A stretch of 64,000 bases of DNA, from positions 509,700 through 573,699 of the forward strand of contig NZ_KI912490.1 of assembly GCF_000518765.1 (NCBI RefSeq), read 5' to 3'. This stretch comes from Ruminococcus flavefaciens ATCC 19208 (lineage in GTDB: Bacteria; Bacillota; Clostridia; Oscillospirales; Ruminococcaceae). The notes beneath the pieces were generated by a model. That model had not been told where the DNA came from. It ran no database searches and saw nothing but the letters and a program-made list of their open reading frames with translations. The position numbers and the translations under genes were made by a program. This document shows positions 19,443 to 24,436 of the stretch, piece by piece (position 1 is the first letter of the stretch; the number at the start of each line of letters is the position of its first letter).

Positions 19443-19979
19443 GTGGTAAGCAGTAAATTTTCTGAATGTAACCCCGAAAAACTTGACAAAACCGTTGCAA
19501 ATGTTGTAAAATTATTAGAACGAAAGGGTCTGACTATATCTACAGCGGAGAGCTGTACGGGCGGACTACTTTCGGAGCTTATAACATCAGTATCGGGCGC
19601 GTCGGCAGTCTTTGAACTTGGGATATGTACTTATTCGGAGAGAATAAAGACAAAGTTCCTTAACGTTCCTGCTGAGGTGATAGAAAAATTCGGAGTCGTA
19701 AGTGAGCAGACTGCACTTTTCATGGTCAGAGGACTTAAAGAAAGTTCGGGTGCAGATGTGTGTGTTTCCGTAACGGGTATCGCAGGTCCATCGGGCGGAA
19801 CTGCGGAAACACCTGTGGGAACGGTGTATATCGGCTTCGATATCTGCGGCAGACAATTTGTACGGCTGCCCGAGCTTTGGAAACTCAGTGATATGAGCAG
19901 AGAGCACATAAGACGGTGTGCGGCTGCTTATGCATTTGAAACTATTGAAAAAATACTGATGGAGGCGGTAACAAACTGA
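19443..19979 (+). CDS. CinA C-terminal-domain protein (nicotinamide-nucleotide amidase type)
   Basis: 178 residues from a GTG. It is the PncC/CinA-C domain alone: TAESCTGGLLSELITSVSGAS, GVVSEQTALFMVRG and SVTGIAGPSGGTAETPVGTVYI are family blocks. PncC deamidates NMN to NaMN in pyridine nucleotide recycling. The N-terminal MoaB-like CinA domain is absent. The stop overlaps the start of the first sortase gene (TGATG), so translation of the two is coupled, though a functional link is not obvious. Confidence 0.9.
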   Translation: MVSSKFSECNPEKLDKTVANVVKLLERKGLTISTAESCTGGLLSELITSVSGASAVFELGICTYSERIKTKFLNVPAEVIEKFGVVSEQTALFMVRGLKESSGADVCVSVTGIAGPSGGTAETPVGTVYIGFDICGRQFVRLPELWKLSDMSREHIRRCAAAYAFETIEKILMEAVTN

Positions 19980-21745
19980 TGAGCGATAGATTAAACGATG
20001 AAAGCTCAGAGGCTCAGCGCAGAGCTGAGAAGATAAAAGCTATCAGAAGGTCGATACACGGCGAAGCAGAAGTTGCGCCTACGACCTATGACAATAAAAC
20101 AGCAGAAAGTGAACGCTCGGAAACTATGGCGGAACGTATCATGCACGTGAAGGAAAAACACAGCTCGACAGCTGAGGATATCCTTGATGAGCTTGACGAG
20201 GCTATAGCTTTTGAAAAGGCGGAAGCTGTGAGAATGGCTGCCGAAGAGGCTGCCGAGGCTGAAAAGGCTGCTGTTAATGCTTCTCCTGATATCTCGGACA
20301 TCATCAACGAGCTTGAAACACCCGCACAAGAGGAATTGAGCGAAATTGCTGATGAAATTACCGAGGATTTTTCAGAGGTTGATACCGATATTGCAGCAGA
20401 GGTTGAGGACTTCACCGAAACTGCGGCTGAAAGTTCGGAAGAAGAATTAACGGAAGTATCTGATGAGGCTGAGGCTGAAACTGAAACGGCTGAGACAGGA
20501 TCGTATGCGGAAGCTGAAGACATCGAAGAAACAATGGTGTTCACTCCTGTGGGACAGAATACTACTGTTGAAGACCAGCTTGCTCCTCTAAAACGGGCTG
20601 AGGAGGAAGCGGCACAGCAGCTTGGAATGACCGACAGGAATATTGACGGGCATAGCTTTCAGCCTATGGAAAAGGCTGACGAAACAGTCAAGCCTGAAAA
20701 GAAGAAAAAAAAGAAGAAGAAAAAGCCTTTCAAGCAGAGGCTTCGCGGACTGTTCCCGGAAAAGGGCGACAGTGTGCTCGAATGCATAAGAAAGATCGTT
20801 TTTCTCGGCTCAGTGATCGCTATCTGCGTCTGCGGATACCTTGTCGGAGATTATTATTACGATCTCTGGTCAAGCAAGCACAAGACAGCGGAATTAATGG
20901 ATCTGTACGATATCTATAAGGAACGTGAGCCGCAGATCGAAGAAGAAACAACTCCCGAGGGAGATAAAAGAAAAAAATATGGCGGTATGCTCGACGGAGC
21001 TAAAAAGCTCTGGGACATCAACCATGATATAGTAGGTGTTATCAGTATCCCTGATACGCCGCTCAACAACCCTGTTTTACAGGCGGACGACAATTCAAAA
21101 TATCTGAACATGAAATATGATCTCACTGAAAATATCGCAGGAGAGATATTCATGGACTACAGAAATCATTTCGATGATGTAGGTGAGGACGGATATTTAA
21201 GATATGAAAATTCGCAGAATCTGATCATCTACGGACATGATATGTGGGACGATCAGATGTTTGGCTTTTTAAAGTATTATCTCAGGAATGAGGCATATTA
21301 CGGAGCACATCCCGTAATTGATCTCAGTTCTAATTATGAGAGATACAAATATAAGATATTTGCATTTTTTATGCTCGATAATAACGACGATACAGATACT
21401 AAGTTTGACTGCTGGAACGTTCTTGATTTTGCTGACGAAAAAGAATTCTACGATTTCGTAAATGAGGCAAAGAGAAGAACTATACGCACAAATGACGTAG
21501 ATGTTGAGTACGGAGATCAGCTCCTTACACTTTCTACCTGCAGCACCTTCTTCCCTGATGAAAGAGGACGTCTTATAATTCTTGCAAGGCGTGTAAGAGA
21601 AGGTGAAGATCCGATGAAGGGAACTCAGGACAGCAAAGCAAATCCTAACATAAAGTGGCCTACATTATATTATTCGATACATCCGGACGAACACTATGAT
21701 CCGAATGCCGAATTTGTTCCCTACGGTCCAAAGGGAGGAAAGTGA
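19979..21745 (+). CDS. Class B sortase with a long acidic cytoplasmic N-terminus
   Basis: 588 residues. Residues 1 to about 240 are Glu/Ala/Asp-rich with no known domain and probably coil; a run of lysines (about 240-252) and one membrane segment (about 268-288) follow. The external class B sortase domain (about 340-565) has the catalytic H420 in IIYGHDMWDD and C521 in LTLSTCSTFF, with RLIILARR supplying the Arg. Sortases cut an LPxTG-like signal and join proteins to the wall. A cytoplasmic head of 240 residues is far longer than usual. GGAGG upstream; overlaps the CinA-C gene. Confidence 0.92.
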   Translation: MSDRLNDESSEAQRRAEKIKAIRRSIHGEAEVAPTTYDNKTAESERSETMAERIMHVKEKHSSTAEDILDELDEAIAFEKAEAVRMAAEEAAEAEKAAVNASPDISDIINELETPAQEELSEIADEITEDFSEVDTDIAAEVEDFTETAAESSEEELTEVSDEAEAETETAETGSYAEAEDIEETMVFTPVGQNTTVEDQLAPLKRAEEEAAQQLGMTDRNIDGHSFQPMEKADETVKPEKKKKKKKKKPFKQRLRGLFPEKGDSVLECIRKIVFLGSVIAICVCGYLVGDYYYDLWSSKHKTAELMDLYDIYKEREPQIEEETTPEGDKRKKYGGMLDGAKKLWDINHDIVGVISIPDTPLNNPVLQADDNSKYLNMKYDLTENIAGEIFMDYRNHFDDVGEDGYLRYENSQNLIIYGHDMWDDQMFGFLKYYLRNEAYYGAHPVIDLSSNYERYKYKIFAFFMLDNNDDTDTKFDCWNVLDFADEKEFYDFVNEAKRRTIRTNDVDVEYGDQLLTLSTCSTFFPDERGRLIILARRVREGEDPMKGTQDSKANPNIKWPTLYYSIHPDEHYDPNAEFVPYGPKGGK

Positions 21746-21751
21746 TTAGCA

Positions 21752-22732
21752 ATGAACAAGAACGCGAAAACAATAACAGCCTGTGTAAGCTGCGCTGCGG
21801 CTGTTGGACTTGGTGCGTTTGCATTATACCTGAACAAGGACAAGAAATCTGTTCCGACTGTGGATAATGGCACAACGGCTGTGACAGAAGCAACAACGGA
21901 AGAAAATGCCGAAAAGCTTTCAGCCGATTGGGCAGACAATTATGAATATGTACCGTCTCTTAACGGTGTGACCGAAAGAACCAAGTCACTGATGCGTCTC
22001 AACAAGGACATTATGGGCTGGGTAAAGATCGATGGGACTCAGGTCGATTACCCGTTCTTGAGAGACCCCGGTGAGGTAGCTGCAAACGATCCGTATTACG
22101 GACCTGATGAGTGGGTGCCTAATTCATATTATCTTGAAAAGGATATATTCAGACAGTATTACGACCGCGGAACATTCTTTGCGGATTACCGCGATAATTT
22201 CGGCGGCGATGAAAGTCAGCAGTCTGATAATCTTGTGATCTACGGACATAACTGGTATGACGGGACTATGATGGGCTCATTGAGAAAGTATCGTCCCGAT
22301 CCCGAATTCTATGAGCAGCATCCTTTTATCGAGGTAAGCTCGAACTATAAAGAATACGATTACGTTGTCTTTGCATATCTCATAACAAGCGGAAGCTATA
22401 ATGCTACCGACTTCCATTACTGGGATATGGAAGATTTTGATACAGAAGAAGATTTTAAGTTTTACATCGACAACTGCCGTGGCGGACAGCTTCTGGATAC
22501 AGGAGTTGATGTTAAGTACGGCGACAAGCTGCTTACTCTTTCTACCTGCTATGCTGATTATGATAATTCGCGTTTCATAGTTGTGGCAAGAAGACTGAGA
22601 GAAGGAGAAGTCGCAGGAGACATGACAACTATACAGCACACTGAGGAGTATTTGAAGAAAAAGAATGAGGAAGCTGAAAAGGCTTCAAAGGAAGAAGCGG
22701 AAAAAGCCGCAAATGAGGAAAAGCCTCAGTGA
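21752..22732 (+). CDS. Class B sortase, second copy
   Basis: 326 residues. Membrane segment near the N-terminus (about 7-25), short Thr/Glu linker, and sortase domain with H166 in VIYGHNWYDG, C266 in LTLSTCYADY and RFIVVARR. The C-terminus is a charged helix (KKKNEEAEKASKEEAEKAA). It starts six bases after the first sortase gene. The pair is similar in the catalytic domain, so probably a duplication with one copy gaining or losing the acidic head. In R. flavefaciens a class B sortase is held to anchor the ScaE scaffoldin; a similar role is plausible. Confidence 0.93.
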   Translation: MNKNAKTITACVSCAAAVGLGAFALYLNKDKKSVPTVDNGTTAVTEATTEENAEKLSADWADNYEYVPSLNGVTERTKSLMRLNKDIMGWVKIDGTQVDYPFLRDPGEVAANDPYYGPDEWVPNSYYLEKDIFRQYYDRGTFFADYRDNFGGDESQQSDNLVIYGHNWYDGTMMGSLRKYRPDPEFYEQHPFIEVSSNYKEYDYVVFAYLITSGSYNATDFHYWDMEDFDTEEDFKFYIDNCRGGQLLDTGVDVKYGDKLLTLSTCYADYDNSRFIVVARRLREGEVAGDMTTIQHTEEYLKKKNEEAEKASKEEAEKAANEEKPQ

Positions 22733-22761: not shown

Positions 22762-24057
22762 ATGAAAATGCAGAAAATGCTTAAACGAGCAGCAGCTGCA
22801 GCCTCGGGAATCATTGTATTCTCTGGGACAACAAGCATGACTACCTTTGAAAATGCCGATACTGATGTTAATGCGTCAGTGGCGGCAGAAGAGGTAAGTA
22901 GTGCAGCAGACGCTGTAACGGAAGCAGCTTCTGAAATTGCTGCGGATACCGCAGAGGAAAAACAGAAGATGCCTGAGGATTGGGAAAAAGCTGATATCAG
23001 CGAATATGACTCAAGCCTCACGCTTATAAGCTATGAGCTTGCAACACCTGAAATGGCTAAGATAGGTGAAGCTGCTGACCCTTATGCAGGGCTTTCAGAG
23101 GAAGAGCGCAAGGCTCGTGAGGAAGCTGTGGAAAAGAAGAAGAGTGCTTTGAAAAAAGGTACTCCTTCTTTGTCAAAGAACGCTGCAAAGAGCAGAAGCA
23201 AAGCTCCGACTGCTGTCGAAATAAAAACTTCGGGAGCATTCGTGGGTGATATCCCCGATTCTCAGCCGGGACCCACAGTAGACGCTCAGCCGGGACAGTT
23301 CGCATTCGTAACATACGGCTGGGGACACGGTGTTGGCATGAGCCAGAACGGTGCTAATTTCTATGCCGCTTATGCGGGCTGGACTTATCAGGATATACTG
23401 TTCCACTATTATCCCGGAACATACCTGATGAATACAGGAATGACAGACGATGAAGAGCTTACTATCGCTCACGAACCGGCAGGTGATACCCTGAAGGTCG
23501 TATCCGAGATAGTAAACCGCGAGGTTGGCGGAAGCTTCTCTTATGAAGCTATCAAGGCTCAGGCAGTTGCTGTATATACTTATTTAAAGTATAACGGTGA
23601 TGATTCAAGAGACCTGAGAGGTAAGCCAAATCCGCCGCAGGTAGTTATTGATGCCTGCGAGGAGGTTCTCGGCGAAGCTCTTTATTATGATGATAATTAC
23701 GCCCTTACAGTATTCTCTGCTTCGAGTGGAGGCTGTTCGGCAAACTGCTATGAAGTATTCTATGCAGACTACCCGTACCTGAGAAGCGTACCGAGCGAGT
23801 ATGATGCTGCGTTTGATCCGCACTGGGGTACAGTAAAATATATGGACGCAGCAGAAGTGAAGAAGAAGCTGGAAACAGCTTACCACATTACTCTCTCTGA
23901 CGATCCGGATAACTGGATACAGCCTGTATACTCGGAAGAGACAGGATATGTAACAGAAGTATGCATCGACGGACAGACTACTGCAAAGGGTTATCCGTTC
24001 TCAATGATGATGGGACTTAAATCATCAAAATTCAATCTTACATATACACATGATTGA
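22762..24057 (+). CDS. Secreted protein with a circularly permuted SpoIID/LytB domain
   Basis: 431 residues. Signal-like N-terminus (KRAAAAASGIIVFSG) and an Ala/Glu-rich spacer to about residue 175. Then GWGHGVGMSQNGA (186-198) and HYYPGT follow, blocks that end the SpoIID domain in normal proteins. After these come IVNREVGGSFSYEAIKAQA (core EAIKAQAVA at 262-270), FSASSGG (321-324 SSGG), PYLRSVPSEYD and a final GxxKSSKFNLTY, which in normal SpoIID precede the GWGHG block. The order is therefore rotated. SpoIID is a lytic transglycosylase acting on denuded glycan; the conserved Glu near REV is present. Last gene of the sortase operon. Confidence 0.88.
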   Translation: MKMQKMLKRAAAAASGIIVFSGTTSMTTFENADTDVNASVAAEEVSSAADAVTEAASEIAADTAEEKQKMPEDWEKADISEYDSSLTLISYELATPEMAKIGEAADPYAGLSEEERKAREEAVEKKKSALKKGTPSLSKNAAKSRSKAPTAVEIKTSGAFVGDIPDSQPGPTVDAQPGQFAFVTYGWGHGVGMSQNGANFYAAYAGWTYQDILFHYYPGTYLMNTGMTDDEELTIAHEPAGDTLKVVSEIVNREVGGSFSYEAIKAQAVAVYTYLKYNGDDSRDLRGKPNPPQVVIDACEEVLGEALYYDDNYALTVFSASSGGCSANCYEVFYADYPYLRSVPSEYDAAFDPHWGTVKYMDAAEVKKKLETAYHITLSDDPDNWIQPVYSEETGYVTEVCIDGQTTAKGYPFSMMMGLKSSKFNLTYTHD

Positions 24058-24092
24058 TAAAAGGCGATAAACAGCCTGATTAAGAACAAAAG

Positions 24093-24157
24093 GAATAAGT
24101 CTTTGGATATACCAAGTGTTACGGCATTTTATATTCGGAGACTTATTCTTTCTTTTT
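24093..24157 (+). terminator. Terminator of the sortase/SpoIID operon
   Basis: GAATAAGTCT (24093-24102) pairs with AGACTTATTC (24139-24148), followed by TTTCTTTTT. The loop is long (36 bases). Confidence 0.7.
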
Positions 24158-24158
24158 G

Positions 24159-24436
24159 GGTGATGAAAGGTGAATCCGAGTGGTAAAAAAATCCTTAAAA
24201 ATACCCGAAAAGGTGAAAAAAGGTGAAAGCAAAGCAAAATATTTAACGAATATAGAAACGTTTGTTTCGTTTTAAAGCAACCGAAAGTTAAACTTTAAAC
24301 AAAATCGACAAAAAATAGCCGATTTTAGGGTTTATACTTGTGAGATATTCCATCTTGAATTTCTACCCAAATGATGTTAAAATAGGTTTAGGGTGAAAAA
24401 AGGTGATTGGATGTGAAATTTTCCAAATTAGGGTGA
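24159..24436 (+). promoter_or_regulatory. MraZ-box-like GGTGA repeats upstream of mraZ
   Basis: GGTGA occurs with a 10-base period in three clusters: 24159 and 24169; 24212 and 24222; and 24392, 24402, (TGTGA) 24412 and 24432. MraZ is known to bind short direct repeats with 10-base spacing before its own gene. The third cluster begins at the predicted transcription start, so binding there should block transcription of the dcw cluster. The rest of the gap 24158-24477 has no gene. Confidence 0.7.
24355..24383 (+). promoter_or_regulatory. Promoter of the dcw cluster
   Basis: TTGAAT (24355-24360), 17-base spacer, TAAAAT (24378-24383), just before the third GGTGA cluster. Confidence 0.8.

Follow-up and report, generated by a model that had tools for sequence, protein, structure and literature searches.

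A circularly permuted SpoIID/LytB protein in a class B sortase gene slot of Ruminococcus flavefaciens

Genes and features of the locus

Our analysis covered a stretch of 64,000 nucleotides of Ruminococcus flavefaciens ATCC 19208 DNA, referred to here as the window. The genes stand in the order NifS, an unnamed ORF, ThiI, a CinA C-terminal protein, two class B sortases, the permuted SpoIID/LytB gene, a hairpin and mraZ (Table 1). The original prediction had placed a rotated SpoIID/LytB domain at 23317-24057. This interval is the 3′ part, starting at GWGHG, of an ORF (22762-24057) whose product consists of an N-terminus, the SpoIID/LytB domain (residues 178-429) and, between them, roughly 140 residues of charged spacer.

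RNA folding of the region 24080-24165 gave −29.9 kcal/mol (z −6.74), and the hairpin is likely a terminator ahead of mraZ. Direct repeats of the GGTGA type lie upstream of mraZ (24208-24418), and we take these to be perhaps MraZ boxes.

A separate canonical SpoIID with the normal order is present elsewhere in the same genome. A third SpoIID-like protein of this genome (L003:1420-2811) has only part of the domain and no GxGHG; after it come repeats that by eye resemble peptidoglycan-binding ones.

Table 1. Positions of the genes and features identified at the locus (window coordinates).
Feature	Position	Strand	Basis or remark
CinA C-terminal (PncC-type) protein	19443..19979	+	Upstream, in the same close gene run
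Class B sortase 1	19979..21745	+	Pfam Sortase above cut-off; TIGR03064 150 bits, under 153.75; His/Cys/Arg present
Class B sortase 2	21752..22732	+	Pfam Sortase above cut-off; TIGR03064 110.6 bits, under cut-off; His/Cys/Arg present
Permuted SpoIID/LytB protein, ORF of 431 aa	22762..24057	+	TIGR02669 112.6 bits
Probable signal peptide (basic, then hydrophobic N-terminus)	22762..22857	+	Judged by eye
Conserved spacer motif EKADISEYDSSLTLISYELATPEM, residues 75-98	22984..23055	+	Pattern in 35/68 permuted-order loci and 1/90 normal-order loci
Segment C-terminal in normal SpoIID, GWGHGVGMSQNGA ... HYYPGT, residues 178-224	23293..23433	+	Maps to 5i1t 283-326
New joint, old C-terminus to old N-terminus, residues 225-239	23434..23478	+	Limits by eye
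Residues 240-429, up to the cut hairpin; in normal SpoIID the N-terminal and central segment	23479..24048	+	Maps to 5i1t 73-109 and 146-278
E254 codon; counterpart of the catalytic E101 in C. difficile SpoIID	23521..23523	+	Alignment
Long hairpin with U-rich 3′ arm, 3′ of the permuted ORF	24085..24156	+	Inverted repeat

Rotated order of the domain

The usual SpoIID/LytB order is EALKAQA ... SSGG ... GxGHG ... HYYxGT, and it is the order of the canonical SpoIIDs examined. In the window protein this series is rotated. The motifs stand where the original prediction had read them, namely GWGHGVGMSQNGA at residues 186-198, HYYPGT at 215-220, REV at 253-255, EAIKAQAVA at 262-270 and SSGG at 321-324, with GLKSSKFNLTY near the C-terminus.

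Profile searches showed that the window protein is homologous to the SpoIID/LytB family, of which it is a permuted variant rather than an ordinary member. NCBIfam TIGR02669 (SpoIID_LytB) matched it in two stretches, above its cut-off of 83.3 bits (Table 1). The score of Pfam PF08486 was 24.3 (cut-off 23), with the best stretch at residues 247-278. Because PF08486 is limited to the region surrounding EALKAQA, the Pfam view hides the rotation, and annotation probably lists permuted members among the ordinary SpoIID/LytB proteins. The spore_II_D equivalog TIGR02870 scored 113.5, below its cut-off of 234.75.

A phmmer search of the permuted core (core residue 1 is ORF residue 174) against the PDB found C. 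difficile SpoIID (5i1t_A) with a whole-sequence E-value of 4.3e-19. Core residues 5-49 matched chain residues 283-326 (i-E 1.9e-5), while core residues 121-253 matched 146-278 (i-E 3.3e-8). The match of core residues 77-113 to 73-109 was insignificant alone (i-E 3.3).

We also trained an HMM on 43 domains of normal order and compared scores before and after rotation in silico. The permuted set comprised 28 domains, all of them tree rows, out of the 68 loci assigned the permuted order: 17 of clade A, 10 of clade B, which is a second, divergent group of permuted sequences, and the outlier L055. Rotation raised the best single-domain score in 28/28 permuted domains and lowered it in 26/26 held-out normal domains, some of which are close to training rows. 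The window protein scored in two pieces as it stands (62.7 and 174.3 bits) and in one piece of 257.4 bits when rotated. A continuous rotation that keeps all motifs is backed by the PDB matches and the HMM test, as well as by the conservation in the genus and the structure prediction described below. Tandem intermediates, with two GHG or two KAQA motifs per ORF, were not flagged among L034-L173 by our patterns, which miss some proteins.

Predicted structure, cut and joint

The permuted core was modelled unrotated by AlphaFold with 24 sequences. The model had a pLDDT of 88.1 and a pTM of 0.83, and its two halves are predicted together as one confident domain, in agreement with the original prediction. 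The pLDDT was 92-96 in residues 21-50, 76 in residues 11-20, and 65 and 61 in the two blocks of the joint (residues 51-70). With Foldseek, all three matches of the model at E ≤ 0.001 were SpoIID chains. In VIA-align, the order-preserving match to 5i1t covered only residues 53-258 of the model, on 70-307 of the chain (Z 15.8, rmsd 3.0, 201 residues).

As a structural control we used L080, a homologue in the normal order that occupies the same slot. Its model (pLDDT 96.0, pTM 0.90) matched 5i1t from end to end, with residues 1-265 on 71-351 (Z 29.6, rmsd 2.0, 252 residues). By eye, L080 elements E221-227, H237-247 and H251-258 correspond to E6-11, H22-32 and H36-43 of the permuted model, H20-32 and H38-57 to H70-81 and H88-104, and E213-218 to its last strand, E251-256. 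Some of the short strands in the L080 model, several in number, are reduced or absent in the permuted one. This comparison by eye supports a rotated order of the main elements in the predicted structures. From the same correspondence, the cut is placed at turn 219-220 of the normal model, which lies in a hairpin. That the moved segment (residues 178-224) packs as in SpoIID is predicted from the pTM, the pLDDT and the order of elements in the models.

SleB appeared in the fold-match list of the permuted model at Z 5.3 and 4.7, which is too low to use. For both the permuted and the L080 model, absence of a fold from the match lists does not exclude it.

At the new joint, HYYPGT is connected to the old N-terminus by a short linker. 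Two genus members, G044 and G017, have a Pro/Glu/Thr-rich insert exactly there, their two matches to the query being separated by 240 and 270 bases. The two inserts are similar to each other and are perhaps one event; an insert at this place fits a surface linker. Such tolerance of a long insert, together with the low confidence predicted for the joint, would suit a domain-swapped dimer in which the fold is completed across chains. However, the pTM of the monomer model and the high pLDDT of residues 21-50 argue for completion within one chain, and we consider a swapped dimer very unlikely.

Distribution of the permuted form

A strong match (E ≤ 6.3e-96) was found in 58/60 genomes of the genus. 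The other two, G035 (88% complete) and G046 (81% complete), had weak matches only, at best 6.8e-8 and 2.9e-8. The rotated order was read in 30/30 genus loci fetched. Other permuted members, for which the original prediction had proposed a search, were found in the family, where a profile of the permuted junction reached 16/148 genomes in 11/123 genera.

In the order survey, at least 4 of the 394 genomes (G000, G027, G406 and G1277) had a row spanning the junction among the matches listed. Some weaker rows among the matches listed reached position 66-81, most of them by reading across stop codons. The row from G296 has no stop codon and proved to be normal-order when read (L156). Among the matches listed in the surveys of the class (341 genomes) and of the phylum (398 genomes), only the window's own spanned the whole permuted profile. 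The furthest-reaching other rows in these two surveys, from G678 and G848, were normal-order when read. No match to the window core was found in viral contigs.

From the named public records, the best 80 of 464 relatives were kept. Of these 80 loci, 25 were permuted, 51 were normal-order and 4 were left unclassified by the script. Fifteen permuted loci of the best 80 belong to clade A (L064-L078), three of them placed in the tree and most assigned by similarity, and are titled Ruminococcus or Oscillospiraceae; ten are of clade B, including L112, whose ORF is cut and which is in no tree. Among all loci scanned, the order-calling script skipped eight (L044, L131, L132, L138, L142, L151, L164 and L169). 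Some species are present in both collections, the survey genomes and the named records.

Rotated domains are rare and genome G000 is a draft of 25 contigs, as might be expected of an assembly error, a frameshift or a chance fusion of two partial SpoIID genes. The strong matches throughout the genus exclude an assembly error, and the same order in all fetched genus loci, as well as the junction in other genera of the family and in named public records, leaves such an artefact a negligible chance.

The sortase-linked gene slot

Upstream SrtB matches were found in the fetched DNA of 15/15 clade A, 8/10 clade B and 22/51 normal-order loci from the best 80 of 464 relatives. ThiI and CinA were also present in 14 of the 22 SrtB-bearing normal-order loci. 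Among the remaining 29, a count limited by contig ends, 26 had none of these genes and three (L099, L114 and L117) had some. In other lineages of the order, the homologues that occupy the NifS-ThiI-CinA-SrtB slot have the normal order. The presence of permuted and normal forms in one slot suggests that the rotation most simply arose within this conserved slot.

The catalytic His, Cys and Arg of the sortases are kept at most loci from L049 up; Lys replaces Arg in L088 and L093. In L056 and L059, a sortase is fused to a normal-order SpoIID domain and its catalytic His and Cys positions are replaced. Single frames of 1225 aa (L105:3073-6747) and 1424 aa (L106:2494-6765) contain CinA, a class B sortase and a normal-order SpoIID/LytB domain.

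The mraZ gene was found within the 1.5 kb flank in 23/30 genus loci and was not found at L072-L078. Given this distribution, a role in division does not follow from its proximity.

Clades, spacer motif and number of origins

Clade B and the outlier L055 have the same cut as clade A. The Ala/Glu stretch of the permuted protein is not a plain spacer, since it contains the conserved motif EKADISEYDSSLTLISYELATPEM, which may be a binding site. This motif was found neither in clade B nor in L055. The sole normal-order locus with such a motif is L141, where it is probably unrelated to that of the permuted loci.

Seven clade B frames (L085, L096, L097, L102, L109, L126 and L146) are about 725-786 aa long. 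By eye, the permuted domain is preceded in these frames by a lengthy N-terminal part with one hydrophobic segment and a linker of low complexity, and such forms are probably membrane-spanning. In L085 and L109, the two that were scanned, Pfam named nothing in this N-terminal part. In L108:5512-6816 and L112:5620-6435, a dockerin type I lies in the same open frame as the permuted SpoIID domain.

A quick untrimmed tree of 86 rows separated clades A (99) and B (98) and placed L055 among canonical SpoIIDs. When A and B were held together in this tree, the likelihood was 24 above that of the free tree, with a p-AU of 0.777. In a careful tree of 56 rows with trimmed joints, clade A (100/100) joined normal-order SrtB-linked rows (99/93); clade B (100/91) lay outside this group, and L055 branched outside the two with weak support. 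The fewest order changes on the careful tree were three.

Two readings of these trees may be considered. SpoIID in this operon slot may have been permuted repeatedly, each time at the same hairpin but in separate lineages of the order (clade A, clade B and L055), a reading to which we give slightly less than an even chance. We rate at even odds a single ancient permutation for both permuted clades, from which the normal SrtB-linked proteins reverted or beside which they descend separately. The identical cut in all permuted groups speaks for one event. So does the fact that joining A and B was not rejected by either tree (p-AU 0.0635 with trimmed joints), nor was joining A, B and L055 (trimmed-tree p-AU 0.09). 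However, the grouping of clade A with normal SrtB-linked rows in the careful tree, with clade B outside, stands against it.

Catalytic residue and probable activity

The catalytic glutamate of C. difficile SpoIID is E101 (PMC6221140). It aligns with core E81, that is, E254 of the ORF, which is invariant in alignments A1 (16 rows), A2 (15 rows) and A3 (24 rows). The GxGHG, SSGG and EAxKAQA motifs are mostly kept across the three alignments; L107 is without SSGG. From homology and these conserved residues, we infer that the permuted protein has lytic transglycosylase activity. Enzymes in this slot can lose activity, as the fused sortase of L056 and L059 shows, and the permuted protein could be a non-catalytic glycan binder or a sortase helper; nothing direct points to this, and the invariant E254 and largely conserved motifs make it unlikely.

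The product is very probably an exported SpoIID/LytB lytic transglycosylase that has undergone a natural circular permutation, most likely with a role in vegetative wall remodelling. As the sequence shows and the structure prediction supports, its domain begins at the hairpin that normally precedes GxGHGVGMSQ and continues through HYYPGT; a new linker then leads into what was formerly the N-terminus, and the domain ends on the other side of the same hairpin. It should fold like SpoIID, and E254 would cleave glycan strands without stem peptides, judging by its homologues. With the rotation, the N-terminal tether or spacer joins the domain at the cut hairpin, a shift that might alter attachment or regulation, as the original prediction suggested. 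Since the permuted gene fills the slot of a normal-order homologue in other lineages, the protein most likely has the function of that homologue in the vegetative envelope, beside the sortases and apart from the canonical SpoIID of the genome.

Comparison with known systems

The window protein resembles the SpoIIDs of C. difficile (5i1t, 5txu) and B. anthracis (4rwr) in its motifs, its catalytic Glu and the fold of core 53-258. Unlike these, it is cyclically rotated, has sortase neighbours and falls below the TIGR02870 cut-off. The normal-order SrtB-linked homologues (for example L080, L105 and L106) share the NifS-ThiI-CinA-SrtB slot and group with clade A in the trimmed tree, but their GHG segment is C-terminal, and L105 and L106 are fused with CinA and SrtB.

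SleC of C. difficile (9h68), a member of another family, gave a partial fold match to the L080 model (Z 14.4, 13% identity over 137 residues) and to the permuted model (Z 7.4, 9% over 106). The chlamydial SpoIID of Waddlia is described in PMC6635528 as a SpoIID-domain lytic transglycosylase outside sporulation, tied to the division septum. By that description, it resembles the window protein in the role proposed here, that of a SpoIID-domain enzyme outside sporulation. In the open-licence literature, we found no description of a circularly permuted SpoIID and no paper on SpoIID domains that act vegetatively near class B sortases.

The recurrent association of CinA, SrtB and SpoIID, including full fusions, points to a vegetative role of the SpoIID domain near class B sortases. 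If the permutation did occur repeatedly, the hairpin would be a preferred site for relocating the tether in such a wall enzyme. A natural permutation kept through the genus, with unpermuted homologues in the same slot, offers a natural experiment on how the attachment point of a wall enzyme matters.
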